From IMG/VR virus record IMGVR_UViG_3300042294_004693, positions 1 through 25,385 of that record: a DNA stretch of 25,385 nt; one strand, 5' to 3'. Each line of letters opens with the position of its first letter. Positions within the stretch are counted from its first letter, which is position 1. The translations under genes and the position numbers were made by a program. This document shows positions 1 through 25,109 of the stretch, piece by piece. This stretch comes from a virus. A model generated the notes under the pieces. The model was not told the origin of the DNA. It made no database searches and worked only from the letters and a program-made list of their open reading frames with translations.

Positions 1-127
1 GCTTTACGCTGTCAACAAGGCTGCCCGCCGTGATTTCTGCGTCGGTCAGTACGTTTACCGTGTCCTTCGCCGTCTGCGCCGAGGCGAGGGCAGGGAGGAG
101 GAGGAAAAAGAAAAGTATCCGTTTCAT
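1..127 (-). CDS. Secreted fibre-module protein, 5'-partial fragment (N-terminus only)
   Basis: The ATG at 127 opens a frame that runs off the left edge after 42 residues. The visible N-terminus is MKRILFFFLLLPALASAQ: two basic residues, a hydrophobic core and an A-S-A cleavage site followed by Gln, a textbook signal peptidase I signal in Bacteroidota style. The next residues (TAKDTVNVLTDAEITAG) are hydrophilic and resemble the start of the neighbouring fibre-like proteins. It starts 12 bases after the stop of the 1287-residue gene and is probably co-transcribed with it. The function cannot be read from 42 residues; by context it is another exported fibre or adhesin subunit. The frame and signal peptide are seen directly; the role is inferred. 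Confidence 0.7.
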   Translation of the reverse strand, partial: MKRILFFFLLLPALASAQTAKDTVNVLTDAEITAGSLVDSVK

Positions 128-139
128 TGTTTTATTTTT

Positions 140-3100
140 TTAATTACATGTTCGTTGTACTTGTATCGTCGCAGTCAAACCTATAAGTGTACCGGACAAA
201 GATACGGTTTTGACATGAATAAGGCTTCCTGACGATATGGAAATGTTTTGAGGTGTTAAGAATGCGTGCCCGTTTCCGATAGAAGAAAGCGTTACCTGTA
301 ATGAATTATCAACGTATAGCTCCAGTGATACGGTTCCAGCGCCCGTAAATCCTTTTGCGCTCATAGTCCTGATGCACCAGCTTTGTAAGTCTGCGGGCAC
401 TACAATGTAGTCCGCATTGTCGTAGTTGTTGGTAACGGTATCTTTTTGTCGAAACACAGGTATGGTAAAATAATGCCTTTGGCTGTCCCTTACCGTTGCA
501 GCAGATACTCCGTAATTTGGTATGTTAAGTGTCCTTCCGCTGAGTGTTGCCGCTCCGGTAGTGCCTGTTGTGGTAAGCGTAAGTTTATTTTGTATGCTTG
601 TCAAGGTGTCGGCGTAACTGATTTTGGTATTGATTCGGTTGGATAGCGAAACCGTATCTACCTTTCTCAAGTACGGCGTAAGCATTGTAGCCGTATCCGC
701 TATGTTGAGCTTGAGATTGATTCTGTTAGATAGCGAAACCGTATCTACTTTTCTAAGGTACGGCGTAAGCATAGCGGTCGTATCTGCTTTCCTTAGATAA
801 GGCGTTAGCATCGTAGCCGTATCCGCTATGTTGAGTTTGAGGTTGATGCGGTTAGATAGCGAAACGGTATCTACTTTTCTAAGGTACGGCGTAAGCATTG
901 TAGCTGTATCCGCTATGTTGAGCTTGAGGTTGATGCGGTTAGATAGTGAAACGGTATCTACTTTTCTAAGGTACGGCGTAAGCATTGTAGCCGTATCCGC
1001 TATGTTGAGTTTGAGGTTGATCCTGTTAGATAGTGAAACGGTATCTACTTTTCTAAGGTACGGCGTTAGCATCGTAGCTGTATCCGCTATGTTGAGTTTG
1101 AGGTTTATGCGGTTAGATAGCGAAGTCGTATCCGTTCCGCTTAACGTGCCCCCGCTAAGGGTTATGCCAGTTCCAAGAGAGATAGCATCGAACACTCCAT
1201 TTGCATCGGCGCCAACAACCTGCGTAGGTGTTGCGCCTGCGTCTAAATCTGTTACACGCATTTCACCGGCCACATGGAAATCCCGGGTTGGTGATGACAC
1301 CTTGATACCGACTTTGCCATTGACGGGGATTGCTTTACCAATGCTATCCATGTTTACGCCAAAAAGCAGGTTTCCGATTGCGAGTTGATTGTCTCCATTG
1401 TCTATTGGAGTGTATATATTGCCTCCAATAGCTATGTTGTTGCTTCCGGCAGCATTGTTAAATCCGCTGAGAGAGCCTAAAAAAATATTTTTTGATCCAC
1501 TTGAAGTGTTTGAGCCCGAAAAATAACCTATAAAAGTATTTTGATCCCCGGTTGATAAAGCACTTCCCGCAAAAAAACCTAACGAAACATTTTGTGTAGC
1601 GCTTAATGCAGAGCTATTGCCAGCGTTAGAGCCTATTCCAATGTTATACAAACCGTTGCCGCTTCGAGAAGAAGTATTAGATAAAAAATTTCCACCAATA
1701 TACACATTGTCATTTCCGTTTCTTGTGCCGCCGCCCCAAATGAAATTCCGATTGGTCGGATCGACGAAAAACGTTGTATCGAATTGCAGCCCTGTGCCAG
1801 TTGTGCCAGTACTGTATGGAACCCTACCCGGTCCTCCAAAATTCGTCAATCCCGTGCCGCCGTTAACAACAGGCACGGTATCTCTTTTGTCAAAGTATGG
1901 GGCAAGCATAGCAATCGTATCGCCTGCAACAATGCCTGCCGTTGCGCTTGTCCTCCAATACCCTGCGGCAGTGTCGTACCTCAAAACCTGATTATGGATA
2001 ACGCTATCCACTTTTACGTCGTTTAGCTCTGCAAGGTCTTCATTTAGCCACGGACGAACAAGCAGCGTAAGGTTGTTGGCGTTTTGCCTTCTTACCAGCA
2101 AAGCAACCGGAACCCTTATTGCAGGAGGAGAAGGCTCTATGTTGGTGTACTTGCCCGGTTGACTTGCGCTGAGATAAAGAATATCCCCGGCAGCAAGGGT
2201 TATACCGGTTTGCACAATGTCTGCTTCTTTTACATTTTCAATATAGCCAAACCAAGTTACAAGTCCTAAGCTATCAACTTCTAAGTTATTGGGCAAAACG
2301 CCCATAACTAATTTGCTTGGATATGTGCCGCTGCCGTCAGCAAGTGTTGCGCGGATATGGTCTCCTTGAACAGTGGTTGTAGGATTAACCATAACGACTT
2401 GTCCTTTTTTTAAAAGAGAACCAGTTTTGTTTATTACGTTAGGATAAAATGTTTCTTGTCCGATTTGCAGCGTAACAGTATCCCCGGGGAACCCGCTGCC
2501 CAAAGCGAGCGTACCGCTATTGTTGTCCCATTTCAACTCCCTTAGTTGAGGCGCAATATCGTTAGGGTTAAATGTTAAACTATCAACAGGCATTACGAAT
2601 TTCGCGGCATTGATGCTATCTTTTACCGCCTGTGTGAGTTTGCTCCAGCTTACGACTTCATCGTCAATCGTCCAAGTGTCTCCAGCTACCGTGATGTGGA
2701 ACTTGTCGCCGTCTGTTACCCCCACCTTAAAGGTTACTGTTGTATCGTTGATCGTGAGCGTAACGTCGTTTGACACAAACTCTTCTGTTACGGCGAGTAT
2801 TGAATTACCGTCCCACGGAAGGTTCAATGTAGTGATGCCGTCCACAACGGCATAAGCCTTGCCAACGCCCGTAATTTGTTGAATAACTACATTTGTTGCG
2901 CTGGTGATCGTAAGAATATCTCCGTCGTCATTTGCACTCATACTCATTGCGCCACCGCCCTGAACAAGCACGCTTTGCCCGTTTACCGTGAGGTAAACAG
3001 CGTTCTTAATCCCTGCACCACTGCTTATGTTTGCAATAACGGAGTTGCCGTCAAATGGAAGTTGTAAGTCGGCGAGGCTATTTACAATTACATAAGCGGT

Positions 3101-4003
3101 ATCTTGAGTAGTTGCGTCAACTACGCTTATACTGGTAACGCTATCAATAACGCCCGGGGCAATCATGCCGCTGGTTATATACCCTGCTGGTATTGAAGCA
3201 TCAATATTAATTGTGCCGCCCGGATTGGCCGCTGTTTCCGTAATATTTATAAGCCCGCTGCCTTGAAGTGTTACGCCCTGGGGAATGATTGTTCTCGTGA
3301 TAATGCCAATTACCGATCCCCCGTCCCACGGCATTTGAACGAATACCGTATCGGTTGCGACAACGGTTCCAGTAACCTGCTCTATATCGGTTCCGGTAAG
3401 CCTTATCCTTGCGGAGTTTGACCCGGCAGTATCAACGAAAATATCTTGCTCTTTAAAGGACGCCGTAATCGTACTGCCGTCCCTTTGATATAGATTGATT
3501 GTCTTTACATTGTCTCCGGTAAATTTCGCACTGTCTATAATCGAATCATACGCCTCGTTCCAAAGCGACGTGCTGTCAATCAAATCCTTTATGAGCTTTG
3601 AGTTCCAAGTGTCAACACCCTCCTGCATAGCCGCCGTTGCGCCATTTACAGCATATACGGTTTGAGGTGCGGCAATGCTTTTGTTGTTCTGAAACACCAT
3701 CACTTGACCGACCGGAGCGCCCCAGTTGCCTCCGCGTTCAACGACAATAATAAATGCAGAGGAGAAGGTTTGATTGTAAAACGAATCAAGGCGATAAAAT
3801 TGGCCTCGCTGGGTAATTACATACATGCTGTCGTTTAGCTGCGTTGGATTGTACGAATTACCGGTAAGGTCTGGACGGAAGTCAATCTTCGCCCGATAGG
3901 TGCTATCGTTTATAGTCGTAAAAAGCCCTGTACCGACAATTCTAAATTGCGCGGACAAAACAAGCGGGGACAACAATAAAAGTATAGCAAGGATTTTTCT
4001 CAT
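140..4003 (-). CDS. Long repetitive tail-fibre-like protein with Sec signal peptide
   Basis: 1287 residues. The reading frame opens further upstream, but the ATG at 4003 gives the N-terminus MRKILAILLLLSPLVLSAQ, a clear signal peptide with Gln at +1, and overlaps the upstream stop as ATGA, so this start is preferred. The body is Gly/Ser/Thr/Asn/Asp-rich and beta-prone with almost no Cys. Near residue 670 is a segment LRYDTAAGYW also found in the next gene upstream. Around residues 770-890 are Gly/Asn-rich repeats of the type NIGIGSNAG, VSLGFFAG, TFIGYFSG, which resemble beta-helical adhesin or fibre shafts. Around residues 950-1115 lies an array of 29-residue repeats. The C-terminal 120 residues lack repeats and may be a receptor-binding tip. 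No S74 chaperone/peptidase motif is visible. Phage fibre is the best reading; a secreted adhesin is the alternative. Confidence 0.75.
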   Translation of the reverse strand: MRKILAILLLLSPLVLSAQFRIVGTGLFTTINDSTYRAKIDFRPDLTGNSYNPTQLNDSMYVITQRGQFYRLDSFYNQTFSSAFIIVVERGGNWGAPVGQVMVFQNNKSIAAPQTVYAVNGATAAMQEGVDTWNSKLIKDLIDSTSLWNEAYDSIIDSAKFTGDNVKTINLYQRDGSTITASFKEQDIFVDTAGSNSARIRLTGTDIEQVTGTVVATDTVFVQMPWDGGSVIGIITRTIIPQGVTLQGSGLINITETAANPGGTINIDASIPAGYITSGMIAPGVIDSVTSISVVDATTQDTAYVIVNSLADLQLPFDGNSVIANISSGAGIKNAVYLTVNGQSVLVQGGGAMSMSANDDGDILTITSATNVVIQQITGVGKAYAVVDGITTLNLPWDGNSILAVTEEFVSNDVTLTINDTTVTFKVGVTDGDKFHITVAGDTWTIDDEVVSWSKLTQAVKDSINAAKFVMPVDSLTFNPNDIAPQLRELKWDNNSGTLALGSGFPGDTVTLQIGQETFYPNVINKTGSLLKKGQVVMVNPTTTVQGDHIRATLADGSGTYPSKLVMGVLPNNLEVDSLGLVTWFGYIENVKEADIVQTGITLAAGDILYLSASQPGKYTNIEPSPPAIRVPVALLVRRQNANNLTLLVRPWLNEDLAELNDVKVDSVIHNQVLRYDTAAGYWRTSATAGIVAGDTIAMLAPYFDKRDTVPVVNGGTGLTNFGGPGRVPYSTGTTGTGLQFDTTFFVDPTNRNFIWGGGTRNGNDNVYIGGNFLSNTSSRSGNGLYNIGIGSNAGNSSALSATQNVSLGFFAGSALSTGDQNTFIGYFSGSNTSSGSKNIFLGSLSGFNNAAGSNNIAIGGNIYTPIDNGDNQLAIGNLLFGVNMDSIGKAIPVNGKVGIKVSSPTRDFHVAGEMRVTDLDAGATPTQVVGADANGVFDAISLGTGITLSGGTLSGTDTTSLSNRINLKLNIADTATMLTPYLRKVDTVSLSNRINLKLNIADTATMLTPYLRKVDTVSLSNRINLKLNIADTATMLTPYLRKVDTVSLSNRINLKLNIADTATMLTPYLRKADTTAMLTPYLRKVDTVSLSNRINLKLNIADTATMLTPYLRKVDTVSLSNRINTKISYADTLTSIQNKLTLTTTGTTGAATLSGRTLNIPNYGVSAATVRDSQRHYFTIPVFRQKDTVTNNYDNADYIVVPADLQSWCIRTMSAKGFTGAGTVSLELYVDNSLQVTLSSIGNGHAFLTPQNISISSGSLIHVKTVSLSGTLIGLTATIQVQRTCN
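642..1133 (-). repeat. Tandem 87-bp coding repeats in the fibre gene
   Basis: Six copies of the SLSNRI-coding segment lie at 642, 729, 855, 942, 1029 and 1116 on the plus strand. The spacing is exactly 87 bases except for one step of 126, which contains an extra 39-base partial copy (13 residues, TTAMLTPYLRKVD). Each full unit encodes 29 residues (SLSNRINLKLNIADTATM, then LTPYLRKVD). Copies differ mainly at silent positions (gcattg/gcatcg, agccg/agctg, gcgaa/gtgaa). The last copy diverges into SNRINTKISYADTLTS. Such arrays can expand and contract by slippage or recombination and set fibre length. Confidence 0.93.
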
Positions 4004-5457
4004 CGAACGATTATTCGGAAGCCTGTTGAGCCAAATAAATTCATCCCCGGGAATACTAAGGTAGAAATATTTGACGAAACCGTTTGCGTGTGATTTGTAG
4101 ATGTTGCGTGCTGATCTATAAAAGCACCGGTGCCCACATCGTATAGCTGCGTACTGAGCCAATAATCACTTGAATTTGCGCTATTGTCAAACGTAAAAAT
4201 AAATTCATTGGACAGCGAAAGCTCGGTATTATTTGCAAAAACCGTTATGCTCCTGATATTTGTGTTCGCAGGCATTGTAATTTTAAAGCTACCTGCCGTC
4301 AGCTTTGTAATCGTAGGCGTCCCGCTGCCAAATAACGAATAAGCCATTGTTACCGCTCCGCTTGTCAACGTGCCGGAATTTACAAATGAATTTGAATTTA
4401 CTGACAACACGCCCCCACTAAGCGACAAGCCGCCTCCAACCCTAACGGTGTCTAATTGATTTGTAGAACCAACTGATCCGACAAGCCTTGAAGCGTCAAG
4501 ACCTCCAATGCCTTTGACTACATTGTTTTCTATTGCCACCCATCTATTGCCTAAAGATGTTTTTTGGGCAGACAAAATAAGCGCCTGACCGTTAAACATA
4601 TTGTATGTCAATTCTTGAACGTAGCCAACAAATATATTGGAGCCAAGCTGTATTCCATAAGTGCCGTCATCGTCCTCTGCGAAAATAACAAGTATTTTAC
4701 CAAGATCGTCGTCTCCTGGGTAATTCAAATTCATAATTAAATTTGAAGATGCAGGAGATTGTAGATTCAGATAAAACGAATGAATTTCGGCGAGATTTAT
4801 AATTGAATCCGTTACTGCTAAAGTTAAGTCTTGTCCGGATGAGGCGTAATATATGCCCTTAGCTTTAGCCGGTATAGAATCTGCAAGCCAATATCCTAAA
4901 GACGTGTCGTATCTAATGATGTCATTGTGCGACGGAGCAGCAGCGCTTACGTCCGTCAATCCGTCAAGTGTTGTGTTTCCTTGAACGCTGTCAATAGAAG
5001 TCTTTAGCACTTGAGCCAATGAATCTATCCTGACAATTACGCCCGACAACTTAACAAACTGAGCCTGCGTGCTAATTCCGTTATCGTTGTCAGGCGTAAA
5101 TGTGTATAGCTTATAGTTCTTTGTCGGCCTTGATATATCGCCTTTCCCAAACGGGATGCCTGTCGGTCCTGACAAGCGACGGATGACAACATTTGCACTG
5201 ACAAAATTTTTGCTTGACACCGTGTCAACAATGTATAGCGCCGTGTTTTGAGCATAGACGTAATCGCCGACAAGCACGCTGTCGGCAGAATATAGCCCCG
5301 TTTGATCGTTGACAGAAAGTGTGCCGGAAAATCGCCCGCTTCCTGTTTGCGAAAAACCGTTAAATGTTACCGTAGCGTTGAACGTGCGGATTAACGTGTC
5401 CTGAGCGCTCAACGACGCACATAAGAGCAGCGAAAAAACGAGGATGATGTTTTTCAT
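4000..5457 (-). CDS. Fibre-module protein with Sec signal peptide
   Basis: 485 residues. The N-terminus MKNIILVFSLLLCASLSAQ is a signal peptide with a predicted S-x-A cut before Gln. The start at 5457 overlaps the upstream stop as TAATG and its own stop overlaps the next start as ATGA, so three genes are translationally coupled. The protein is Ser/Thr/Gly/Asn-rich and beta-prone. Residues about 165-190 contain LDGLTDVS followed by HNDIIRYDTSLGYW, which matches LAELNDV and NQVLRYDTAAGYW of the 1287-residue protein and resembles the general LxDV-x(n)-QVLxYD-x(n)-W motif of phage fibre proteins. GGGLSLSGGVLSV near residue 343 parallels GTGITLSGGTLSG in the same neighbour. There is no enzymatic motif. 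Probably a fibre or accessory fibre subunit; the exact role is unknown. Confidence 0.75.
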   Translation of the reverse strand: MKNIILVFSLLLCASLSAQDTLIRTFNATVTFNGFSQTGSGRFSGTLSVNDQTGLYSADSVLVGDYVYAQNTALYIVDTVSSKNFVSANVVIRRLSGPTGIPFGKGDISRPTKNYKLYTFTPDNDNGISTQAQFVKLSGVIVRIDSLAQVLKTSIDSVQGNTTLDGLTDVSAAAPSHNDIIRYDTSLGYWLADSIPAKAKGIYYASSGQDLTLAVTDSIINLAEIHSFYLNLQSPASSNLIMNLNYPGDDDLGKILVIFAEDDDGTYGIQLGSNIFVGYVQELTYNMFNGQALILSAQKTSLGNRWVAIENNVVKGIGGLDASRLVGSVGSTNQLDTVRVGGGLSLSGGVLSVNSNSFVNSGTLTSGAVTMAYSLFGSGTPTITKLTAGSFKITMPANTNIRSITVFANNTELSLSNEFIFTFDNSANSSDYWLSTQLYDVGTGAFIDQHATSTNHTQTVSSNISTLVFPGMNLFGSTGFRIIVR

Positions 5458-7367
5458 TAGAATACGCCTTTTACGAAAAATTCACTAAGACCGTTGATTC
5501 CGGTAATGGTTGTTGTAGTAGCGTTTGCGGATATAGTCGGATGCGTAATTTGAAACCCTGCTCCGGTATTGTTGAGCTGCACACGGGCAGCCGTGCTTGT
5601 TTCGACAACTGTTATAGCCGGGACAAATGCAGTGTTTTCACTTGTATTCAAAGAGGACGGAGGACTTGTCCAAGAGCAGGTAATGTTTAAACTGCCGCCT
5701 CCTGTAAGGTCTGCGCTTGTGCCGTTGAATTGAAAAGAAATAGGCCGGCACGTAGAGGGTATGGTCAACGTATAGCTTCCAGACGATCCGCTCGCCGTTG
5801 GCGCAGCGCCTTGATAAGCTACAAAAATCCTTCCGCCCCCGGCAAACGTAGTAGTGTAAAAGCTATAACCCGATCCGGCAGATGCAAGTGCAAGTGTGCC
5901 GTTTGCCATTGTAAAGTCCGAAGATATGCTCACTTCTTGAGCTTGTCCAACACCGGAAGAAAAGCGGCCAATAAGTTTGTTTTGCGAGATTTGCTCGACC
6001 GGGGACGTGAACCAATACCATTTCGTGCCGTCCGAAACCAACTTGATAGGTACGGTCGCGTCAATGCTTGCCGTTGTCTGTGTGCCGGAGGAATTGTAAT
6101 AGGTAATGTAGTTGAAGCCCCCAAGTATTGCCACGTTCAATACAGGCGTTGTAGGCGTAGCATTTACCCTGATGGGGTAAAACCAAAGTACTTTGCCTTT
6201 CGCCGGTATAGTAGAGGGCAGGTAGATTGTGCGGTTGTTTTGCGCGATTAGCTGAACGTGCACCTCGTCGTACTTTGTAAAGGTATCAATTTCAATCGTA
6301 TCGCTTGTCGAAATGACGTTTATGATTGTCGAGAAAGTCGTTTTTTCAACGCCTGCATCGTTGTAAAGATTGCGTACTTCCCAGTAATAAGTGCCCTCAT
6401 ACAAAACGCCTGTAAGTTTTTTGGGAACCGTAATGATTGAACTCGAAGTGGTCGTTGTTGCAAAAGCCGTTGTCTCGCTAATTGTAAGTAGCCGTACCGC
6501 ATCGCAGGTAATTGTATTTGTGTAGGTACTTGTCTTTTGAGGGTAGTAGTAAAGTACTTTGCCGGCAAAGGAGCTATCTGGGATTGGCACTTTAAGCTGC
6601 GTATTGCCGCTTTCTGCTTCGGCATATACCGTAAATTCGTCCGTGTCGCGGAAGGTCGTATCGGTAAAGACAACGCTTTGCGAGTTGATGACCTGAGACT
6701 TTACGCGCTTTGAGGATGTAGCGGCAGCGGTAGGGGAATCCGGGCTTGAGATAAGTTGCCAGTTGTAGCCTCCGCTTGCAATAGATGCGGTCGAAACAAA
6801 TCGGTAATGACCCGGTGTGGCATTGTAAAAATTTTGGAAAGAATACGGAAGCCCGGAAATTACAGAAAACTTACCGCTCAAGGTAGCGTATTGGATACTT
6901 GCAGATGGGCCGATATAAACAAGCACGTCTATGATTTTGCCATTTGTTGCAGCGCTGGGCGTTGGAAAAGAAATGGTTGACCCGGCAGGCGTGATGTTGG
7001 TTTCGTATTGCACGAAAAGATAGTCGTACTTAGTCAGCGTGTCGGCGGGGATAGAATAAGAATCGCCGACAAGCGATCGCGCCCAGCTTTGTGAGCTTTG
7101 CACAAAGGCTTGAGCGGGCAGCTTTACGCACACCGTGCCGGTCGCCCTTGTGATGCAGACGCTATCGCCGCTAATTGATAGCGATTGATCCATGAATTTC
7201 TTTATCGTCGTCAGGCTTGCTTTCCTGGGAAGGCCAAAGCGCTGAGAGTAAACCTCGAAGGTCGAATCTGTTACCGTTGTGAGTTCGGTAAATTGGTTTG
7301 GCCGCACCCATTGGGCATTTAGGGCGAATGCGCAAAGGACGAATACCGCAAAAAGAATCCTTTTCAT
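5457..7367 (-). CDS. Fibre-module protein with Sec signal peptide, first gene of the unit
   Basis: 636 residues. The frame is open 22 codons further upstream, but those codons lie over a promoter-like box, while the ATG at 7367 gives MKRILFAVFVLCAFALNAQ, a signal peptide with A-x-A then Gln. The body carries repeated beta-sandwich-like stretches: segments such as DTLTKYDYLFVQYET, DTFRDTDEFTVYAEAE-like and DTFTKYDEVHVQL each precede a stretch of the form GKVLxFYP or GKIIDVLVY, suggesting three internal copies of one roughly 130-residue module. The C-terminal 150 residues are Thr/Ser/Ala-rich. There is no catalytic motif. It heads the fibre unit, with a TAnnTTTG box 15 bases upstream and a terminator behind that. 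Likely a structural or adhesive phage protein. Confidence 0.75.
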   Translation of the reverse strand: MKRILFAVFVLCAFALNAQWVRPNQFTELTTVTDSTFEVYSQRFGLPRKASLTTIKKFMDQSLSISGDSVCITRATGTVCVKLPAQAFVQSSQSWARSLVGDSYSIPADTLTKYDYLFVQYETNITPAGSTISFPTPSAATNGKIIDVLVYIGPSASIQYATLSGKFSVISGLPYSFQNFYNATPGHYRFVSTASIASGGYNWQLISSPDSPTAAATSSKRVKSQVINSQSVVFTDTTFRDTDEFTVYAEAESGNTQLKVPIPDSSFAGKVLYYYPQKTSTYTNTITCDAVRLLTISETTAFATTTTSSSIITVPKKLTGVLYEGTYYWEVRNLYNDAGVEKTTFSTIINVISTSDTIEIDTFTKYDEVHVQLIAQNNRTIYLPSTIPAKGKVLWFYPIRVNATPTTPVLNVAILGGFNYITYYNSSGTQTTASIDATVPIKLVSDGTKWYWFTSPVEQISQNKLIGRFSSGVGQAQEVSISSDFTMANGTLALASAGSGYSFYTTTFAGGGRIFVAYQGAAPTASGSSGSYTLTIPSTCRPISFQFNGTSADLTGGGSLNITCSWTSPPSSLNTSENTAFVPAITVVETSTAARVQLNNTGAGFQITHPTISANATTTTITGINGLSEFFVKGVF

Positions 7368-7382
7368 GCTGATAATTTTAAG

Positions 7383-7390
7383 CAAAGTTA
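7383..7390 (-). promoter_or_regulatory. Bacteroidota-type -7 box TAACTTTG for the fibre unit
   Basis: The minus strand reads TAACTTTG, matching the TAnnTTTG -7 consensus of the Bacteroidetes primary sigma factor. It lies 15 bases before the ATG at 7367 and just after a terminator (7432-7461), where a new transcript would be expected to start. No good TTTG lies at the usual -33 distance, so the call rests on the box and the location. Confidence 0.45.
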
Positions 7391-7431: not shown

Positions 7432-7461
7432 AAAAAGGCACGGCCTCATTTTAGCCGTGCC
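7432..7461 (-). terminator. Intrinsic terminator
   Basis: On the minus strand an 8-base-pair perfect stem (GGCACGGC / GCCGTGCC) with a 9-base loop is followed immediately by TTTTTG. It lies 32 bases after the stop of the 284-residue gene. This ends the head-side transcript and separates it from the fibre unit. Confidence 0.88.
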
Positions 7462-7493
7462 CCAAAGGTTATGCAACATCATATACAAACGAC

Positions 7494-8348
7494 TTATGCG
7501 TCAAGTGTTTTTCTCAATGTGGCGTACATCGCAGCGCCCTCCTGTGTGGTCTTAAACCAGCGGGCAAGCTGTGCGTTTGCAGCGCCGGGCAAAGCGTTTT
7601 TAGTTGCGGAGTAAAACTCCATTTTTGTTTCCGTCCACTTAAAGGCATTGCTCCTGCGGTCAAGCGAAATGATTTTGCCTTCGATTGCTTTTTCAATGTC
7701 CGAAACAAAACTGCCAAGATTGGATATTACCTCGTGCCCCGCCTGAGCCTTTGCAGGGTTCTTCTCTGCGTACTCGATTAGCTTTAGGCGCAATACCTGC
7801 GTCAAGTCTCCGACTTCGCCCACGCCGATTTGTGCGGCAAGCAGCGGCACTTCTTCGTCGGTCAAAGATGCAACCATTTTAATTGCGTCCGCGCCCTGTG
7901 ATTTTTCGCCGACTTTCTCCAGGGCAACAGCGTCGTCGTTGATTTGCTTGAACCACACCTTTGTGTTGGAATCGCGGTGCGGGTTAGTCTCGTTGTAGTT
8001 GCAGAGCATCAGATATTGGTACATAAGAATATCCGAAGAGGAGTATCTGCCATTTTCGTCGGGGCGAATAATGATATGCCCGGAATGATCGAAAAAGATC
8101 ATTGGCATAATGGGTTCGCCGGTTGAGGAAACATTGTGCACGTTGGCAATGGTATAGACATCGTTTGTCTCCGGGTCAACAATGCGGTCTGTTTTTGGGA
8201 CTGCCGTCATGTGCGGATAGCGCCAGCGGTTGTTGGCCTTGTCCCAGTATTTGCCCCGCACTTCAAACTTTACCATTTGTCCGGTAAGTTTTGGGATGCG
8301 GCTTAGGATGTTTTCGGGCAAATTGTTATACTGATCGGTGATGAACAT
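7494..8348 (-). CDS. Phage structural-region protein of unknown function
   Basis: 284 residues, start ATG at 8348 with an AAGGA-type ribosome site 10-20 bases upstream. I do not recognise the family. The N-terminal 135 residues are mixed alpha/beta and rich in aromatic residues (GKYWDKANNRWRYPH, IMPMIFFDHSGHIIIRP). Residues about 150-235 are helical and Ala/Glu-rich (LTDEEVPLLAAQIGVG, LKLIEYAEKNPAKAQA), and the C-terminal third is basic with FKWTETKMEFYSATKN. There is no signal peptide, unlike its neighbours on both sides. It is flanked by two intrinsic terminators, so it may be read partly by read-through. Its place after the capsid genes suggests a virion or assembly protein, which is inference only. 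Confidence 0.7.
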   Translation of the reverse strand: MFITDQYNNLPENILSRIPKLTGQMVKFEVRGKYWDKANNRWRYPHMTAVPKTDRIVDPETNDVYTIANVHNVSSTGEPIMPMIFFDHSGHIIIRPDENGRYSSSDILMYQYLMLCNYNETNPHRDSNTKVWFKQINDDAVALEKVGEKSQGADAIKMVASLTDEEVPLLAAQIGVGEVGDLTQVLRLKLIEYAEKNPAKAQAGHEVISNLGSFVSDIEKAIEGKIISLDRRSNAFKWTETKMEFYSATKNALPGAANAQLARWFKTTQEGAAMYATLRKTLDA

Positions 8349-8429: not shown

Positions 8430-8870
8430 TTACTTGCTCAACTTGAGCCCGAGCCGCGTAGTAGATGAAAAAGCAATAGGAGAGGCATCGTTTACGCGGA
8501 TGCGGTAATAAGCGAGCGCGTCGGTAACTTTTACGACCGTATCGTTGGTGGCCGTCCACGTCCAGGTCGCAACGTCGTCCCAGAGGTTTAGGGTGCCGGC
8601 GAAGTTGCTGCCTTGCAGGGTAAATACGGCAGTGTCCGTACCGGAAGATTTGACGTGCTCGATATGGAAGAGCAGTTTTGAATCTTCCCTGAAAGGCCGG
8701 TTGAGGTTTGGCGTGATGTACTTGTCCGCGCCTGCACTGTCGCGGGAAATTACCGGAGGGTAAATCAGCTCATAAGAGGTCAGCGCCCCGGTTTGATTAG
8801 TCGAAGATTGCAGGATCAATGCCGTCAGGACAAAGACAATGCCCGCAATATAGAAATGGATTTTTTTCAT
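8430..8870 (-). CDS. Small exported or membrane-anchored beta-rich protein in the head module
   Basis: 146 residues. The N-terminus MKKIHFYIAGIVFVLTALIL is a positively charged start followed by a hydrophobic segment of about 18 residues: a signal peptide or signal anchor without a clean A-x-A site. The rest is a small beta-rich domain (DTAVFTLQGSNFAGTLNLW, then AYYRIRVNDASPIAFSSTTRLGLKLSK split over residues 120-146) that reads like a beta-sandwich. It lies 68 bases after the capsid gene, past a hairpin, and before a terminator. Position suggests a capsid decoration or accessory protein, but a membrane-targeting N-terminus is odd for that; a surface protein made late in infection is an alternative. 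No family recognised. Confidence 0.65.
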   Translation of the reverse strand: MKKIHFYIAGIVFVLTALILQSSTNQTGALTSYELIYPPVISRDSAGADKYITPNLNRPFREDSKLLFHIEHVKSSGTDTAVFTLQGSNFAGTLNLWDDVATWTWTATNDTVVKVTDALAYYRIRVNDASPIAFSSTTRLGLKLSK

Positions 8871-8938: not shown

Positions 8939-10318
8939 TTACACAAGGTCAACTGCCATAAAGTGCTGCTTGCCGAGGACTTGAAGCCCTTGACGGCATT
9001 CGTAAACAATCTTGCGCTTGGAATCGCCGCTTGTCGCAACGCCGTCTGCAAGGCCGCCGAGGCTGATTTCCCGGTAACGGGTCATCGCGTCAGTGGTTGC
9101 GTTCGCCTGATTGGAGATAGGCATTTTGATGTAGCGGATCATGAAGCGGGGAAGCGTCTGACCGTCTGCCGTACGGATGTTGTCCATTGGCAGGAACCAT
9201 GCACGCTTTTCAAATCCGGCAGAACCGGTGAAATTGACGAGCACGGGGTGATCGAAGAACGGAATGCGCTTCTTGGTGAACCGATAGTCGTAAAGGTTGA
9301 AGGCATCAACGCCGAGGTCAATCGTGCGGCCGCCCACGTTGACCTGCGCGAAAGGCGAAATTGCGTCTGCTTGCGTCAGGGCGTTGAGCATATTGTCGTG
9401 CGCAATGCTCATTTCGCTGCCCATAAGGATCATGTAGTCCCGGGGCGCACGCGCTTTTGAAAGCAGGCGGGTGATGTCGGCATAGTTCGTCGTGTTGATT
9501 CCGGCAGCAGGGGCAACAATGCCTTCTTCAGCGTACTGGTTCAGGCCCTTAGTGGTGCTGACGATGTTGGAGTTGATGTCCGTGATCGTATTTGCGCCCG
9601 CGGTATCGTTGAACGTGTCGGTGGACTGACGGCCAAGAATCATAGCGGCGCTCACCGCAGAGAGGAACTTTGCGTACACCTGAGCCTGCTCGTAGCTGAA
9701 ATAGTACGACTGGCCGTTGTACTCAAATTCAACCTGAGAACCCATTTCGATATCCGTTACCTCGTAGCTTTCTTTGAAGATTTGGATATGGTTGGTCTCT
9801 TTGCTGATTTTGTAGCGACGCGAAGCGGGTTCGGCACTGCCTTCGCCGGCTGCATTGGAGAATACGGCGAGCTTGTCGGAAGCGGCAAGGCCAAGATCGG
9901 AGTTGTCAACGCTGAGGATGTGCAATTCGGTCGTGCCGTTCAAGGTGATAGAGCCGTAGGAGCTTTTGGCCTTGATGTAGCCCACTTTGCCGTCCGGGCA
10001 CATAACGAGTTCGCCCACGCGCACCTTTGCAAAATCATCGGTCGAAACGGCAACCTTCGGGTTGGCAGTAGAGAAGCTGCCAGTAGTCGTTACGGCTGTG
10101 GCAGTAACATTTACGGAGAGTTCTTCGTTGATGAAGTTGTGGTATTCCGGCTGCACGGTAGGTTCAGATCGGTTCATAAACTCAAGTAGTTCCAAGAAGG
10201 ACAAGTCCTCATTGGTTACGTTGAGTACTTTGTTGAGTATCTCGCGGCGATCCACAAGGTTCGGGACCATCAACGTCGAGACGTAATTTTTTGAAGTAGT
10301 TCCAAAATTAGAGGGCAT
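8939..10318 (-). CDS. Major capsid protein candidate
   Basis: 459 residues, ATG at 10318. The call rests mainly on position: it follows portal and scaffold-like genes with only 13 bases between it and the latter, the usual portal-scaffold-capsid order. The sequence fits: soluble, acidic-neutral, no signal peptide, an N-terminal helical arm (residues about 15-50, LVDRREILNKVLNVTNEDLS), then mixed alpha/beta with a central segment (FEYNGQSYYFSYEQAQVYAK) and a helical stretch with RQSTDTFNDTAG, as in HK97-type capsid proteins whose sequence conservation is low. The C-terminal part contains FLPMDNIRTADGQTLPRF and ends in GLQVLGKQHFMAVDLV. A hairpin follows the stop. The fold was not tested, so a different virion protein remains possible. 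Confidence 0.7.
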   Translation of the reverse strand: MPSNFGTTSKNYVSTLMVPNLVDRREILNKVLNVTNEDLSFLELLEFMNRSEPTVQPEYHNFINEELSVNVTATAVTTTGSFSTANPKVAVSTDDFAKVRVGELVMCPDGKVGYIKAKSSYGSITLNGTTELHILSVDNSDLGLAASDKLAVFSNAAGEGSAEPASRRYKISKETNHIQIFKESYEVTDIEMGSQVEFEYNGQSYYFSYEQAQVYAKFLSAVSAAMILGRQSTDTFNDTAGANTITDINSNIVSTTKGLNQYAEEGIVAPAAGINTTNYADITRLLSKARAPRDYMILMGSEMSIAHDNMLNALTQADAISPFAQVNVGGRTIDLGVDAFNLYDYRFTKKRIPFFDHPVLVNFTGSAGFEKRAWFLPMDNIRTADGQTLPRFMIRYIKMPISNQANATTDAMTRYREISLGGLADGVATSGDSKRKIVYECRQGLQVLGKQHFMAVDLV

Positions 10319-11342: not shown

Positions 11343-13631
11343 TTATTTCATTGTATCCGACGCTACCTGTGCCGGGTTGCGTCCTGCCCTTCTTACCGAA
11401 GCCATTGTTTCGGCAATATATTCTTTGCTTTCCGCCCTTAGTTGTTCGTTTGTCAGCGAAGCGTCCGCGATCATTTTGTTCTTGACAAATTCTGCCTCCA
11501 GGCGCATTTGCTCAACGGCCATTGCTTTTTGCACCTCTGCCTGTAAAAGCTCCATCTTGAGCTGATACTCCAACTGCAAAGTTTTGCGCTTTTCCTCTTC
11601 GGCGATCATTGCGCTTTGCTGCTGGATTTGCGCGTTTTGCTGTTGCATCATCATAGCCTGCTGCTCCGCCCGTTCCCTTTTCTTTTTGACCTTATAGGCC
11701 AAAATACCGTTCGCCGTTTTAAGCGAGCGCAAGCCCTCTATCATAATCGCATCGTCAATGTCAAGTTGCCCTGAATCAATAAATTTCTCCAGGCGCATTT
11801 TAAAAGCACCGCGCTCTTCCGGCGTAGGGATCGCGTCTAAGAAAATACCAAACTCGACACTTGATAGTTCCAAATCCCCTTGCTTCATAAAATCAAGGGT
11901 AGGCTTTCCAAGTGAGTACAGGTACGACTTATTGATGTTTTTTGTCCGGGCAAGGGTTTGAATGCGAAGGGAAATGCTCTCTGCGACACTTTGCATAAGC
12001 TCCCGGTCGGCCTCGATTATGCCATAAAGGGAATTGTTGGTCGCCTCTATTCCGGCGTTTACTGCCGCTGAGTACGTCCTTTGCCCGGCAAAGCTATCTG
12101 TTACCTCATTAAGCCCGATAACGTCCCTTAAAAGCTGTATGTTCTGCTGAATGATATTGAAGTACTCCTGAGCTTGAGCACCAATGCCGCCTTCGAGTTC
12201 CGTGATAGGCCGGTAATTTGCGGCATTGCCTTCCATATCGCGCAGGCGATAGTAGATATTCCCGGTACTTTCGTAAATGTCAATCAAGTCTTTTGCCGTA
12301 AAAGCCTGACCGCCTTTACCGATAGGCACATCTTCGAGTGCGCCTATTTCGATCATTATGCCTTTTGGCCGGGCTTTTGCGATAACGTGTTGCAGACGGT
12401 AGTACGCCAAGTTAATTTGGTCAACGACGTTCATGCTTTGCTCGACCTTACCCACACTTGACATATCGAAGTAGTCAAAGTTTGGCGCAAAGATGTGATA
12501 TGACAAGCTGGTTTCCTGGAGCGCACTTCTTTTGCGCTTCATGTTCGTAGCAAGGCCGAAGCCAAAAATATAATCCGTGCCCATTACCCATTTGGCCTGA
12601 TAGACAACCTTGACAAGTTTTTGCTTGTCGCCTTTGCCCGGGCTTGTCCTGATTAAATGGATGTTGCCGTACTTGTCAACACTTTCTTCATAAGCAAGGG
12701 AGTTGTATGACAACCATTCAATCTCCATGACACGCACCTTGCTATCGCGCATGTTGCTCCTTGCCCACATGTTGATGCCGGTAAAGGCGCTTTCTCCGTT
12801 GACGCTTTTCCTTGCTATATCCTCTAAGTCCTTGTCGTCAAGTTCGCCGTTTGCCATTTCGGCCAAATCCTGAATATTGATTTCAGTGATTTCGCCGATA
12901 AATTCCGCGTCCTTAAAATCGCGCCTTGTTACCCGGGAACAAATCATGTTGGCCGGGTTGACAGCGCGTATTTTTATAATGCCGTCTTGGTCAACATATT
13001 CTTTTACGCCACCAATACCGTAGTCAAAAAGACAGCGCTTTACTTCTGCACGCACCTGATCCATGTTGTTCATCAGGAAAATTTGCTGCATCCATTGCTC
13101 CATTTCCGTTGCAAGGGCGTGCTTAAACGAGTACATCCGCTGCACCTCGAGTTCCTCTAAATCCGCAGGTTCGCTTTCCTTCTGCCTTACCGGGGACATT
13201 TCTACCATATCCGGCGCAACTTTTTTAAGTGCGTCCCGCATACGGATTTTTGCCTCCTGCTCTTTAAAGTAGCGGTCAATTTGGCCTTGCGATTTTGGGT
13301 CTATCGGAGTAGCTAAGATGTCGTAATCTGAGCGCTTAGTAATGCTTAGGGCGAGTTCGCGGAATTTGGTCAGGATAGCAAGCGGCGCCCAGTTCATGTT
13401 GGAATAAGACGGGTCCGGGCTTTCGTCCGCTTTGATGATTTTCTTATAGCGGCTAATGCTTTGCTTTGATAGGGCGTAATCGGTAAGTTCCCGGTACTTA
13501 TTGCGGTTTGAATAAAGCGAGTTCCATCCGCCAGAAGAATAAGACTGCCATGCAGCACGACAGTACTGCAAAGCATAAGCCTTGTCTTTCTTACGCGGGT
13601 CAATATTTGCGGACGGAAATATCGGTTCCAT
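11343..13631 (-). CDS. Portal protein
   Basis: 762 residues, ATG at 13631 with a promoter-like box 14 bases upstream. Portal proteins form the dodecameric ring through which terminase drives DNA. The evidence is length, position directly before scaffold and capsid genes, and architecture: an N-terminal region with aromatic-rich helices (WQSYSSGGWNSLYSNRNKYR), a segment about 190-225 (VKRCLFDYGIGGVKEYVDQDG) and a following stretch (RAVNPANMICSRVTRRDF) resembling the PxxI/V-type wing region of large portals, then helices around residues 400-520. Residues about 650-745 are a long Gln/Lys/Glu/Met coiled coil (QQAMMMQQQNAQIQQQ), which matches the helical barrel or C-terminal tail of podovirus-type portals. 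It is larger than the roughly 450-550 residues of many portals. No conflicting motif seen. Confidence 0.78.
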   Translation of the reverse strand: MEPIFPSANIDPRKKDKAYALQYCRAAWQSYSSGGWNSLYSNRNKYRELTDYALSKQSISRYKKIIKADESPDPSYSNMNWAPLAILTKFRELALSITKRSDYDILATPIDPKSQGQIDRYFKEQEAKIRMRDALKKVAPDMVEMSPVRQKESEPADLEELEVQRMYSFKHALATEMEQWMQQIFLMNNMDQVRAEVKRCLFDYGIGGVKEYVDQDGIIKIRAVNPANMICSRVTRRDFKDAEFIGEITEINIQDLAEMANGELDDKDLEDIARKSVNGESAFTGINMWARSNMRDSKVRVMEIEWLSYNSLAYEESVDKYGNIHLIRTSPGKGDKQKLVKVVYQAKWVMGTDYIFGFGLATNMKRKRSALQETSLSYHIFAPNFDYFDMSSVGKVEQSMNVVDQINLAYYRLQHVIAKARPKGIMIEIGALEDVPIGKGGQAFTAKDLIDIYESTGNIYYRLRDMEGNAANYRPITELEGGIGAQAQEYFNIIQQNIQLLRDVIGLNEVTDSFAGQRTYSAAVNAGIEATNNSLYGIIEADRELMQSVAESISLRIQTLARTKNINKSYLYSLGKPTLDFMKQGDLELSSVEFGIFLDAIPTPEERGAFKMRLEKFIDSGQLDIDDAIMIEGLRSLKTANGILAYKVKKKRERAEQQAMMMQQQNAQIQQQSAMIAEEEKRKTLQLEYQLKMELLQAEVQKAMAVEQMRLEAEFVKNKMIADASLTNEQLRAESKEYIAETMASVRRAGRNPAQVASDTMK

Positions 13632-15935: not shown

Positions 15936-18020
15936 CTAAAATAAATCGTTGATGTCAATTATTTTTAGCGCTTTTTCAGCGCCCTTCTTAAGCAAAATCT
16001 TAGAATCCGCCAAAAGCGTATAGCCACTGGCCATTGCCGCATCATAAGTCTGTGTGCGCTCGATATCAAAGTTTGCCCAGTCTTTAAGGAGTTCTATAAA
16101 ATAGACCTTATGAATGTTATCGTAAATGTATTTCTCGATTAGCTCGCACATAGCCTGCGTTGTTTTCCGCGAGGCGGCAATGCCGTAGTTTTTTTGATTC
16201 CTTAACTTGACCAAATAATTCTGCACGCGGGCATTTTCAAAATATCCGACAAGGCCAATTTTCTGATTCTCGATAAGCCCTAAGCAGCCGTAATGAAATA
16301 GCGTGATAAAGACATCCTCATAAAATGCCTCTACCTCTTGCGTCCTATAAATATACTGCACCACAAACATATCTGTCGTATCCGGCTTTAGCGGATCGTG
16401 CTTGCGTTTGATATAAAAAGCGCCGTCCGATTTTTGTTTACCTTCAACCTTAGAGTGCGAAAACGGGTCAATGCCGCAGCAATATAGATCAGTTGCGCCC
16501 GGTTGATAGTCCGTCCTATATCCGGGGCTTTCGGCGCTCAGGGATTCATGCGGGTGCACATCTGCCTTTACCCTTAACCATCTTCCTTTTTGCGTCGGCA
16601 CCCAGCGCACGTTTTTACCATAGCTTTCCCAGACGTAGTTCCCGCGCTCCGTAAATTCATCCTGCCTCCAGACGATAGCGTCAATTTGATCGGAGATTTT
16701 CGCCACATCAAAAATGCTTTCCCTGCCCAAAAACCGAAACGCCTCTTCAACCGTAAGCGGCTCTTTTCGGATGATACTATTATAGCCCATCACATCGTCG
16801 CTGTACGCTTTTCGCTCTGCAATAATCCTATCGCGGTTTTTCTCCCTATCTACCTGTCCGTACTTATCAAAGTCGCGCGCTTCATCTGCCGAAATAAAAT
16901 ACCGAAAAAGCCCTGTCTTTGTCCGGTGCGTTTCATCGTCGAGCTTTAATTGATCGCAGTCGGAATACATCTTGACGTAATTATCCGTGCTGCCTTCTAT
17001 TTCCTCAACAGTCGAGGTAAGCATCGCTTTTCCGCGAATCTTCCCGTCCACGATAAGGCAGAACTTGACAACGTTCCAGCGTTCGTACACGTCCACACCG
17101 GATCGCGTCTTAAAGACTTCATCGCCAACGTATCGAAGTAGCTTGGTTCCGTCAAATGCCGTCTCTGAACTACTCCTATGCTCTACCCAGCCGCCTAAGA
17201 AATTGCCCGACTTAAAGGTTTCCAGGTCGGTTTGTTTTGGCTTAAACATTAGGGTATTGGAGATATTGGCGAGGCGGCGATCGTCGTGCACGGGCTTAAA
17301 AAAGTCCGGCAGACGGGCAAACATGCGGATTGCGCTATCCTTAAAAACCACCTTATGTGCATCTTCGTCCGTCTTTGATTGAATGCCAAAGTTTGCAAAA
17401 CTTGTCCGGGTAACTGCCTCAAGTCCAAAGGCCACACTCATTTGTGTTTTGCCCATCCGACGTTTTGTAAGCAAGACCGTGCCAAAGCAATTCGGGTTTC
17501 GCATTACATGTTCCAGGAAAAGAAAAAACCGCCTATCGGTTTCCCGAAAAGACGGATAGCCCTTATTCCCATAAGCCGCAATAAAACACCACTCGAGATA
17601 AAAGTAATGAAGCCCGGTAATGTAGGTCGCGCTTCCGCCTTTGCCATTTGCAAACCAGCAGCCGCCCAAACGCCTAAGCCAAGCGCCTTGACGAAAATTC
17701 TCCACGTCCACGTCAAAATAGCCCGGGTCCTGCGCCTGCTTTATGGCCTCATCTGCAATCTTTTCGGCGTACCATTTTGGCAATCCCTGCCGCGTCCAGT
17801 AAAAGTCGTCCTCTTCCGTATTTTTTTTATCAACCCCTATATACACCATTTGCCTTGTCGTCGGGTCAAAGACGTACCCTTCCGGCGGAATGGCTATTTC
17901 AACGCCCTGAATTACCGTACTTGAATAGCCTGTCGGAACAGGACAAGCGACATAAGCCGATTTGCCCTCGCCGACAAGCTGCCAAGCTTTCTTATCACCA
18001 CTCAAATTCTTTTGCGTCAT
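15936..18020 (-). CDS. terL: Terminase large subunit (packaging ATPase and nuclease)
   Basis: 694 residues from the ATG at 18020; a TTG at 18050 would add ten residues deep inside the upstream gene. TerL pumps phage DNA into the prohead through the portal and cuts it. The ATPase domain shows a Walker A-like TKRRMGKT (residues 185-192), with KRRMGK in place of GxGK, and a Walker B LLRYVGDE (294-301) with the acidic pair D300/E301. The nuclease domain has CGIDPFSHSKVEGKQKSDGA with D518, an ENQ at about 584 and a C-terminal TYDAAMAS, giving the acidic residues of an RNase H-fold nuclease. Length is within the usual 450-700. It overlaps the preceding gene by 26 bases and is followed by a promoter rather than the portal, which is separated by 2.3 kb. 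Confidence 0.9.
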   Translation of the reverse strand: MTQKNLSGDKKAWQLVGEGKSAYVACPVPTGYSSTVIQGVEIAIPPEGYVFDPTTRQMVYIGVDKKNTEEDDFYWTRQGLPKWYAEKIADEAIKQAQDPGYFDVDVENFRQGAWLRRLGGCWFANGKGGSATYITGLHYFYLEWCFIAAYGNKGYPSFRETDRRFFLFLEHVMRNPNCFGTVLLTKRRMGKTQMSVAFGLEAVTRTSFANFGIQSKTDEDAHKVVFKDSAIRMFARLPDFFKPVHDDRRLANISNTLMFKPKQTDLETFKSGNFLGGWVEHRSSSETAFDGTKLLRYVGDEVFKTRSGVDVYERWNVVKFCLIVDGKIRGKAMLTSTVEEIEGSTDNYVKMYSDCDQLKLDDETHRTKTGLFRYFISADEARDFDKYGQVDREKNRDRIIAERKAYSDDVMGYNSIIRKEPLTVEEAFRFLGRESIFDVAKISDQIDAIVWRQDEFTERGNYVWESYGKNVRWVPTQKGRWLRVKADVHPHESLSAESPGYRTDYQPGATDLYCCGIDPFSHSKVEGKQKSDGAFYIKRKHDPLKPDTTDMFVVQYIYRTQEVEAFYEDVFITLFHYGCLGLIENQKIGLVGYFENARVQNYLVKLRNQKNYGIAASRKTTQAMCELIEKYIYDNIHKVYFIELLKDWANFDIERTQTYDAAMASGYTLLADSKILLKKGAEKALKIIDINDLF

Positions 18021-18639
18021 AATCTTCTGCTTCCGTAAGCCCTGCGACAAGTTCCGGCGAATACGACATCTTTTGCCCGATAAGTTCCTCTAATTGCTTG
18101 TCGCCACCGTATATCTTAGCATAAAGCCCTTCGAGTTCCTCGCTTGTCGCCTTCATGTATTTTCTAAGCCCGTCCTTGACAGTCATCGCGTCTAAGACTT
18201 TCTTTGCATCCATCTTGTCGCCCTCCTCGACAATGGCAAACATTTTCTCAACGCACTCGTCAAAGAATTTCTCTAAAGCAGAAATCCTTGAAAAATCGCG
18301 GTTGTGTTGCGCCCGGAGCATTTCAGTCGCTATGTCAACATAGACCTCTGCCGACAAGCCAAAAATCTGACTGACAAGATTGTACTCTTCAGCTTGTGTC
18401 AAGTCAAAGCCGGCAAGTTTTGCGGCAACTGCTTTGCGCTCTTTTAAATCCTGCACCCGTCTGGGCACCGGCGAGTTGGCATCGTACATATAGGCAAAGT
18501 ACGCCCCTACCTTCATGCGGTTTCTTTGCGTTATACGCCGCATAGCCATTACCGTATCAAGGCCGGTTGCGGCATAGTCTTTTGCCCGGTACACCTTATA
18601 TCGCATATAGCGAAAATCGCCGTCTTTAAAATATCCCAT
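17995..18639 (-). CDS. Candidate small terminase subunit or terminase-associated protein
   Basis: 214 residues, start ATG at 18639. Entirely soluble and helical: an N-terminal basic region (GDFRYMRYKVYRAKDYAATG, then MAMRRITQRNRMKVGAYFAY) followed by acidic helices (EYNLVSQIFGLSAEVYVDIA, ISALEKFFDECVEKMF) and an acidic tail (EAEDYDAKEFEW). The small terminase is normally encoded just before terL and has a basic N-terminal DNA-binding part and helical oligomerisation core, which this fits in outline. A clear helix-turn-helix is not visible, so the assignment rests on position and composition. It overlaps kinase-MazG upstream by 14 bases and terL downstream by 26. Confidence 0.5.
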   Translation of the reverse strand: MGYFKDGDFRYMRYKVYRAKDYAATGLDTVMAMRRITQRNRMKVGAYFAYMYDANSPVPRRVQDLKERKAVAAKLAGFDLTQAEEYNLVSQIFGLSAEVYVDIATEMLRAQHNRDFSRISALEKFFDECVEKMFAIVEEGDKMDAKKVLDAMTVKDGLRKYMKATSEELEGLYAKIYGGDKQLEELIGQKMSYSPELVAGLTEAEDYDAKEFEW

Positions 18640-19636
18640 CGAGCGTAAATTTTTCGTACGCCGGCCCTTTTTGAATTTTGCCCGTCTCTTTATTCACAAC
18701 GTAATAACGCCCGGATTCAGACTTTCTTACCTCGAGCTTGCCCCTGTTTTCTTCCTTATTGCACTCTGCATTAACTAAGTCCAAGCGCGTTGTCGCCTTT
18801 GACATATTGGCCTGGAACAACACCTTCATGTAAGCAACAATGTGCTCAACGTTCATACTGCAAAGTGCAAGGGCAATCGTTACCCAGAGCAAATCGCAAA
18901 TTTCCTCTGCCTGCCTTTGCGATCCGAATTTTTCGTTCATTACCTCGTTTAACTCCTCCTGAACGAGCTTTAAGTAAATCTTGTGCGCTTCGGCAGGACC
19001 ATTTTCAAAAACATCAAATTCGTTCATCCAATAATCAACCGCCTCGATAGGCGAGGCAAACTCAGGCAGCTCGACTTTTTTCTTTACCTCAAGGCCTGTG
19101 ATCGTCTGTAAAATACCTTCGACCGTAGCCTTAAAGCGCAGAAAACCGTCCTGCGAAAAATCATTGGCCACCGTAAAATCCCCCTTCACCCCGCCTTCGC
19201 TTTCATGGTTTGCCCAGATGCTTTTGGTCATACCGTCCGTTCGCTCCACGCGGATAATCGTTCCCCCGTTTTCCCTTATCCAAGCGGCTTCATTGTCAAA
19301 GCGGACATCAGAGATAATCAAGTTTTGCGTCGGATAGCGGTTTGCCAAGATATTGATCCAGATGTTTTTGTCAAAGTTGTTTCGCAGCGCGTCCGTTCCC
19401 ATGCGCTGTAAAACTTCCCGCACCGGTATTTTAAAAACCGGGCAGATGCTTTCCTTAAATTCCCTGTACGGCAAAAACTTTCTGCCCGTCAAGAGCGAAT
19501 AAGCCTCTTTTAACGCATCCGCAAAAGCAACATGCACAAAGCCAAGCTCAGGATAAGCGTGCTGGGCAATCACCGCAGCAGCGTCTTTACCGCTGCCTAT
19601 CTGCCCTGCAAAACCAATGATAAACCTTTTTTGCAT
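18626..19636 (-). CDS. Fusion of dNMP kinase and MazG-like NTP pyrophosphohydrolase
   Basis: 336 residues from the ATG at 19636; a TTG at 19645 overlapping the upstream stop as TTGA would add three. The N-terminal domain (1-180) is a P-loop kinase of the phage deoxynucleoside-monophosphate kinase type: Walker A GQIGSGKD (11-18), MGTDALRNNFDKNIW (79-93) and LIISDVRFDNEA (106-117). It would phosphorylate dNMPs to dNDPs. The C-terminal domain (about 195-335) has the all-alpha NTP-pyrophosphohydrolase signature EELNE (227-231) and EICD (245-248), followed by NKEENRGKL and a KGPAYEKFTLDGIF tail seen in phage MazG proteins. MazG enzymes hydrolyse non-canonical NTPs and, in some cases, ppGpp. A single chain coupling the two is unusual. 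It lies downstream of thyX in the same strand run. Confidence 0.8.
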   Translation of the reverse strand: MQKRFIIGFAGQIGSGKDAAAVIAQHAYPELGFVHVAFADALKEAYSLLTGRKFLPYREFKESICPVFKIPVREVLQRMGTDALRNNFDKNIWINILANRYPTQNLIISDVRFDNEAAWIRENGGTIIRVERTDGMTKSIWANHESEGGVKGDFTVANDFSQDGFLRFKATVEGILQTITGLEVKKKVELPEFASPIEAVDYWMNEFDVFENGPAEAHKIYLKLVQEELNEVMNEKFGSQRQAEEICDLLWVTIALALCSMNVEHIVAYMKVLFQANMSKATTRLDLVNAECNKEENRGKLEVRKSESGRYYVVNKETGKIQKGPAYEKFTLDGIF

Positions 19637-19641
19637 AAAAT

Positions 19642-19875
19642 TCAATTTTTGTCGTATCTATAAACCTTTGCCGGATATTTGCACATGTGCCCTTTGAAGC
19701 CTTCAGCGTACTCTAAGGGGAAAGTGCGCCTTTTCATATATTCCGAATAAGCGCTAACCGTCTTAGGGTTAGACTTATAAACCGTATAGCGAACATCCAT
19801 TCCGCTTCGCTGCTCGACAACAATATCGCCGACAAGGAGTGTGTCCCCGATATTTAGCTCAGTTAATTTCTTCAT
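19642..19875 (-). CDS. Small hypothetical protein, 77 residues
   Basis: The ATG at 19875 gives MKKLTELNIGDTLLVGDIVV then EQRSGMDVRYTVYKSNP. The frame is open to 20022, but the extra part overlaps the previous gene out of frame and is Lys-runs, so the short start is preferred. NIGDTLLVGDIVVEQ has a VGD-type turn that suggests a small beta-barrel similar to KOW/SH3 folds. The C-terminal half is basic and aromatic (KGHMCKYPAKVYRYDKN). It overlaps the previous gene by 17 bases and abuts the kinase-MazG gene. Function unknown. Confidence 0.6.
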   Translation of the reverse strand: MKKLTELNIGDTLLVGDIVVEQRSGMDVRYTVYKSNPKTVSAYSEYMKRRTFPLEYAEGFKGHMCKYPAKVYRYDKN

Positions 19876-25007: not shown

Positions 25008-25109
25008 AAATGGGAGGCGTTTTGGGTTTTGAAAGCGGGAAAGGTTGCAAAGGTGGTTTGGAGAAAAGGCAAGAGAGAGGGGGGAGAGGTAGGGGAGATC
25101 ATTGATTCG

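Follow-up and report, generated by a model that had tools for sequence, protein, structure and literature searches.

Predicted Q-rule export signals on a fibre-like operon beside the head genes of a podovirus-like virus

The locus and its gene order

Here we describe a stretch of viral DNA, hereafter the window, which is a virus record of 25,385 bases and carries a podovirus-like head module on the minus strand. The genes of this strand are ordered as terminase, portal, a 332-aa gene, capsid, a 146-aa gene, a 284-aa gene and, finally, the four genes g1, g2, g3 and g4 that constitute the operon considered here. The main features are the following.

15936..18050, minus strand, terminase large subunit (phrog_6681)
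11343..13631, minus strand, portal protein (phrog_6547), ~26% identical to that of Cellulophaga phi38:1
8939..10318, minus strand, major capsid protein (SU10_MCP family, E 6.5e-10)
8430..8870, minus strand, 146-aa protein whose hydrophobic N-terminal helix recurs in four contigs
7494..8348, minus strand, 284-aa protein of cytoplasmic type, lying between capsid gene and fibre operon
7435..7463, minus strand, predicted intrinsic terminator after the 284-aa gene, separating the head genes from the fibre operon
7383..7390, minus strand, -7 box TAACTTTG of the Bacteroidota type (TAnnTTTG), upstream of g1
5457..7367, minus strand, g1, 636 aa, fibre-like and predicted to be exported, with beta-type repeats inside the protein
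7314..7367, minus strand, g1 predicted signal peptide, MKRILFAVFVLCAFALNA, cut before the Gln of QWVR
4000..5457, minus strand, g2, 485 aa, predicted exported fibre-like protein, its start overlapping the g1 stop (TAATG)
5404..5457, minus strand, g2 predicted signal peptide, MKNIILVFSLLLCASLSA, followed by QDTL
140..4003, minus strand, g3, 1287 aa, predicted exported tail-fibre-like protein, its start overlapping the g2 stop (ATGA)
3950..4003, minus strand, g3 predicted signal peptide, MRKILAILLLLSPLVLSA, followed by QFRI
1..127, minus strand, g4, of which 42 codons are seen before the contig end cuts it
77..127, minus strand, g4 predicted signal peptide, MKRILFFFLLLPALASA, followed by QTAK

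The starts of g3 and g4 lie exactly at 4003 and 127, which corrects an earlier sequence-only reading of this DNA, and 12 bases separate the two genes. A family search with the 284-aa protein gave no match.

Two related contigs from other metagenomes, G001 (IMGVR_UViG_3300037502_002674, 50.4 kb) and G002 (IMGVR_UViG_3300044825_003108, 21 kb), allow the operon to be compared. Its 5′ side is marked by a hairpin with an 11-pair stem, 7 of the pairs being G-C, which is the strongest of the scan (dG -19.3 kcal/mol, z -3.5); both relatives have a hairpin of other sequence at the same place (z -4.0 and -4.4). The promoter box of Bacteroidota has the consensus TAnnTTTG. The TAACTTTG found upstream of g1 also stands in G001, and G002 has TATTTTTG, which fits the consensus too; since over the whole window the motif is not above chance, only the position and the recurrence of this box count. 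Altogether, terminator and promoter box suggest that the fibre operon is probably a transcription unit of its own.

Phage group and host

The portal protein is ~22-26% identical to those of phi38:1 and elemo (22-25% when the portals are aligned), and the named portal relatives infect Flavobacterium, Cellulophaga, Tenacibaculum and Maribacter. A portal scan of genome contigs returned only relatives of 24-27% identity and no close host. The portal relatives, as well as the TAnnTTTG box upstream of g1, are suggestive of a Bacteroidota-type host for this tailed, podovirus-like virus. The tail module lies at the other end of G001, on the opposite strand, and is devoid of signals; it comprises one protein of phrog_13977, one of phrog_14478 and a giant one. 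The phrog_14478 protein matches crAss_MUZ, the crAss muzzle profile, at E 5.6e-5, below the Pfam cut-off.

Signal peptides cleaved before glutamine

The sequence-only reading had proposed that all four genes encode Sec signal peptides obeying the Q-rule, and this proposal is borne out by a rule-based script (not SignalP) together with comparison with homologues. Each of the four N-termini presents a basic n-region, a hydrophobic core, an allowed residue at -3, a small residue at -1 and Gln at +1, and the g1-g3 homologues in G001 and G002 retain both the signal and the Gln. One detail has to be amended, as a basic residue pair had been ascribed to all four genes and g2, which starts MKN, has a single basic residue. 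Of 5000 shuffles of each gene's N-terminus, between 6 and 51 gave a signal followed by Gln, Gln making up 3.8% of the residues in the related contigs; the occurrence of this arrangement at g1-g4 is not due to chance. Judged by these features, it is very likely that the products of g1-g4 are exported by Sec and cleaved just before the Gln.

The same reading had pointed to a hydrophobic N-terminus in the 146-residue protein (8430-8870). The hydrophobic helix is indeed kept in four contigs, but no acceptable cleavage site was found before its conserved Gln, so that this protein resembles a membrane anchor rather than a Q-rule substrate. Its gene directly follows that of the capsid protein, and it carries a conserved QSSTNQ-G, which is unusual for a head-module gene.

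Conservation on both sides of the predicted cleavage site

G001 and G002 keep the order capsid, 146-aa, 284-aa, g1 and g2 (g3 in one of them), and the overlapping starts of the operon genes are the same as in the window. Between homologues the signals are 12-47% identical (2-8 of 16-17 residues; 18-29% in the case of g1), and each is still a signal, with the hydrophobic core, the charge, the small residues and the Gln all retained. The Gln and the residues that follow it are kept across the homologue pairs (QWVRPN, QDTLIR/QDTINR and QFRIVGTGLFTT), and the mature residues 1-45 of g1 are 100% and 91% identical to those of its two homologues, the rest of the protein being 66% and 56% identical. 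This sharp jump from a drifting signal to a conserved mature sequence is the boundary that cleavage there would leave. Identity between the window and G001 is 53-67% for g1-g3 and 94% for the capsid protein.

Searches of viral contigs with g1, g2, g3 and the 284-aa gene revealed no close relatives beyond the contigs already known, and a plasmid search with g3 had no match. Every contig ends inside or near the operon, and a conventional fibre gene may therefore sit in the missing part. Within g3, positions 629-1124 of the window hold near-identical 87-base tandem repeats coding for 29-residue units (SLSNRINLKLNIADTATMLTPYLRKVDTV), present in a shorter version in g3 of G001; the contigs possibly break in or near the operon because of these repeats.

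Evidence for a fibre-like nature

All four genes had also been described as fibre-like, a claim that sequence homology sustains for g3, that is circumstantial for g1 and g2, and for which the 42 codons of g4 are too short. A domain of ~200 residues (g3 residues ~470-690) is shared, at about 32% identity and with E down to 1e-14, with proteins of Nitrincola phage 1M3-16 and Pseudomonas phage Rollin that are annotated as tail fibre or tail proteins; neither these nor the matching tail fibre proteins from other phages have a signal peptide. Residues ~760-960 of g3 are YadA-head-like and match Bacteroidota proteins.

Homology searches of g1 and g2 against known tail fibres were without match. Internal repeats are found in g1 (profile probabilities 87% and 70%), and the g2 homologues of G001 and G002 carry GIGTTSP / GINTVTP motifs with weak matches to phage families of unknown function. 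Furthermore, the g1-g3 homologues are the strongest S/T/G/N/V-rich and K/E-poor outliers of G001, and the only strongly fibre-like composition outliers in its 50 kb. Repeats, motifs and composition would make g1 and g2 fibre-like on circumstantial grounds. For g1 and the 146-aa protein, the predicted structures had confidences of 43-45, too low to be reliable, and sequence searches of the PDB gave no match.

How widespread the signals are

Among 180 ORFs of five related contigs, a signal followed by Gln was found only in the g1-g3 homologues, in 8 of the 8 complete N-termini available. In 80 more distant viral loci (portals 25-32% identical, 618 ORFs), many of them short and not always covering the fibre genes, it occurs in one 119-aa ORF, and 18 loci taken from assemblies of bacteria and archaea (234 ORFs) yielded none. 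The three named relatives have it in one ORF, the 97-aa hypothetical protein gp52 of phi38:1 (L008 1090-1383), whose signal is of the Q-rule kind.

The phage phi38:1 (Callevirus, Pervagoviridae), the Flavobacterium elemoviruses and the Crassvirales appear to be akin to this phage in portal, terminase family and tail module; unlike them, whose fibre genes are devoid of signals, here the signals stand on fibre-like genes in a separate operon. Indeed, the visible fibres of phi38:1, elemoE and MW202828 start with MAKI.NT...LIGTD and have no signal, and neither do those of crAss001. As far as the sequence collections show, the export signals are confined to a small lineage and are not general in the phage group. 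The correspondence of the mature N-termini of g1-g3 with the MAKI.NT-type anchor, with which the fibres of phi38:1 and elemo start, was plausible by eye, found no support in profile comparison and was discarded.

Sorting signals and chromosomal kin

No match to the T9SS C-terminal sorting domain (Por_Secre_tail or TIGR04183) was found in g1-g3, a tail that was detectable, as a control, in chromosomal kin of g3; likewise, the script found no lipobox Cys in g1-g4 or in the 146-aa protein. Thirty Bacteroidota proteins with readable N-termini were inspected, most of them having the head-like region of g3 and a few being phage-like or weak g1 matches; with a strict script, 25 have a signal and 19 a signal followed by Gln. 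Among the g3-type chromosomal proteins scanned (n=8), two carry a T9SS tail and five Peptidase_S74, and YadA_head is present in some. These tail-fibre-domain proteins (YadA_head / Peptidase_S74) thus have in common with g3 the signal before Gln and the head-like domain, whereas the S74 chaperone or the T9SS tail was not found in g1-g3. Outside the signal region they resemble tail fibres of many phages, which suggests that fibres and secreted host proteins share one domain pool. The simplest reading would be that the fibre operon of this lineage was assembled from such exported host proteins, or was exchanged with them.

Known systems with comparable signals

In Bacteroidetes, the Q-rule holds on average for 71% of signal peptidase I substrates (Bochtler et al., 2018, PMC5837995). 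These Sec substrates have the same signal and the Gln at +1 (PMC5837995, PMC10653852); in the present case, the proteins are encoded by a virus and the cyclisation is predicted. Phage-encoded Q-rule proteins have already been reported, since the Porphyromonas gingivalis phages (Nixviridae) encode five of them, of unknown function (Matrishin et al., 2023, PMC10367356), mentioned again by Szczesniak et al. (2023, PMC10653852). There, as here, signal peptides encoded by a phage of a Bacteroidota host are cleaved before Gln; those phages are temperate and inserted at tRNA-Pro (PMC10367356), whereas the window has a fibre-like operon beside podovirus-like head genes. In the open-licence literature we found no description of fibre genes with signals of this kind, nor of tailed-phage fibres crossing the periplasm.

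Virion fibres completed at lysis, or adhesins of the infected cell

The accepted view is that the assembly of tailed phages is completed in the cytoplasm, and none is known to us in which the fibres pass through the periplasm. The explanation that we prefer, with a probability of about 0.48 for the whole, is that the exported, Q-cleaved proteins of the operon become virion fibres at lysis. Host Sec would export at least four operon proteins, three of them fibre-like, and signal peptidase I would cleave them just before the Gln, which, once exposed, the host would probably turn into pyroglutamate. The mature proteins would then fold and accumulate in the periplasm and, as the missing sorting signals suggest, would be retained there until lysis. 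Virions would be made fibreless in the cytoplasm and, at lysis, the mature proteins would attach to them via their conserved N-termini and serve as receptor-binding fibres. The position of the operon, the conserved mature N-termini, the variable remainder and the lack of another fibre candidate are what suggests this last step; attached fibres usually combine a conserved front with a variable rear. Against this reading stand the lack of homology found between these N-termini and the fibre anchor of the relatives, the signal-less, cytoplasmic fibres of the wider relatives, crAss001 among them, and the stretch missing beyond g4, where a fibre gene of the ordinary kind may lie. Joining of the virions at lysis as receptor-binding fibres is, in our estimation, close to an even bet, and the completion of the particles outside the cytoplasm, with the Sec route, periplasmic folding, pyroglutamate N-termini and attachment only at lysis, is a tentative proposal whose chances fall somewhat short of even.

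The sequence is compatible both with virion fibres and with adhesins on infected cells. The proteins could be exported to the envelope of the infected cell or to the medium without being parts of the virion, acting as adhesins, as receptor blockers (superinfection exclusion) or as aggregation factors derived from secreted fibre-like host proteins; this is the main rival explanation, though a less likely one. The fact that Bacteroidota chromosomes encode proteins built in the same way leans in this direction, considering that 19 of 30 have the signal before Gln and that some of the g3 type carry Peptidase_S74, YadA_head or T9SS tails; moreover, the Q-rule proteins of the Porphyromonas phages have been suggested to modify the surface of the cell (PMC10367356). 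However, g1-g3 are devoid of the T9SS tail or lipobox needed to reach the surface or stay on it, four such genes adjoining head genes would be an odd setting for accessory functions, part of g3 is held in common with annotated tail fibres, and the 50 kb of G001 contain no other fibre candidate. The lack of T9SS and lipoprotein signals, along with the conserved front and variable rear, leans towards virion fibres.

It could also be argued that the N-termini are not used for export at all, being hydrophobic tails by which the fibres are anchored, to the virion or to one another, within the cytoplasm, where fibres normally assemble and where the signal-less fibres of the relatives would be built. 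Nevertheless, the letters of the signals drift freely, which speaks against a structural anchor, as this should keep its sequence, whereas charge, hydrophobicity and the small-x-small motif before Gln are kept and the adjoining mature residues are conserved; we consider this explanation improbable. A partial export, in which an internal start past the signal would also yield a cytoplasmic form, finds a candidate in the GTG at codon 21 of g1 in two of the three homologues, but g1 of G002 has no such GTG, and close to the cleavage site of g2 and g3 no internal start is conserved, which makes it very improbable. Finally, a contig chimera or host DNA beside the phage, which the head-like domain and the signal before Gln common to chromosomal proteins might evoke, is contradicted by the gene order and overlapping starts shared with G001 and G002, from other metagenomes, and is hardly credible.

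As regards the virion-fibre reading, the operon would plausibly have originated by module exchange with secreted fibre-like proteins of the host that share the signal before Gln and the head domain, in whichever direction between phage and host. More generally, a fibre-like operon with conserved export signals would either break the rule of cytoplasmic assembly or mean that the phage coats its host with fibre-like proteins. Both readings bear on host recognition and competitor exclusion by Bacteroidota phages, and the data point to modules having passed between the fibres of phages and the adhesins secreted by their hosts. One prediction, simple to check, is that virions or envelopes would bear pyroglutamate N-termini.

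Other genes of the window and its relatives

Elsewhere in the window, positions 20885-21508 encode a 207-aa protein with a GroES-like (Cpn10) C-terminal domain (a weak match, above cut-off), and GroES-like genes are also present in the relatives phi38:1 and elemo. Positions 18626-19645 encode a deoxynucleoside monophosphate kinase fused to a MazG-like C-terminal part. In the contig G004 (IMGVR_UViG_3300035670_000673), two adjacent ORFs at 23907-25234 share the starting motif MLTITNEDCMELMKRYPDKHFDLAIIDPPYGI, which suggests a duplicated DNA methyltransferase front end next to thyX.
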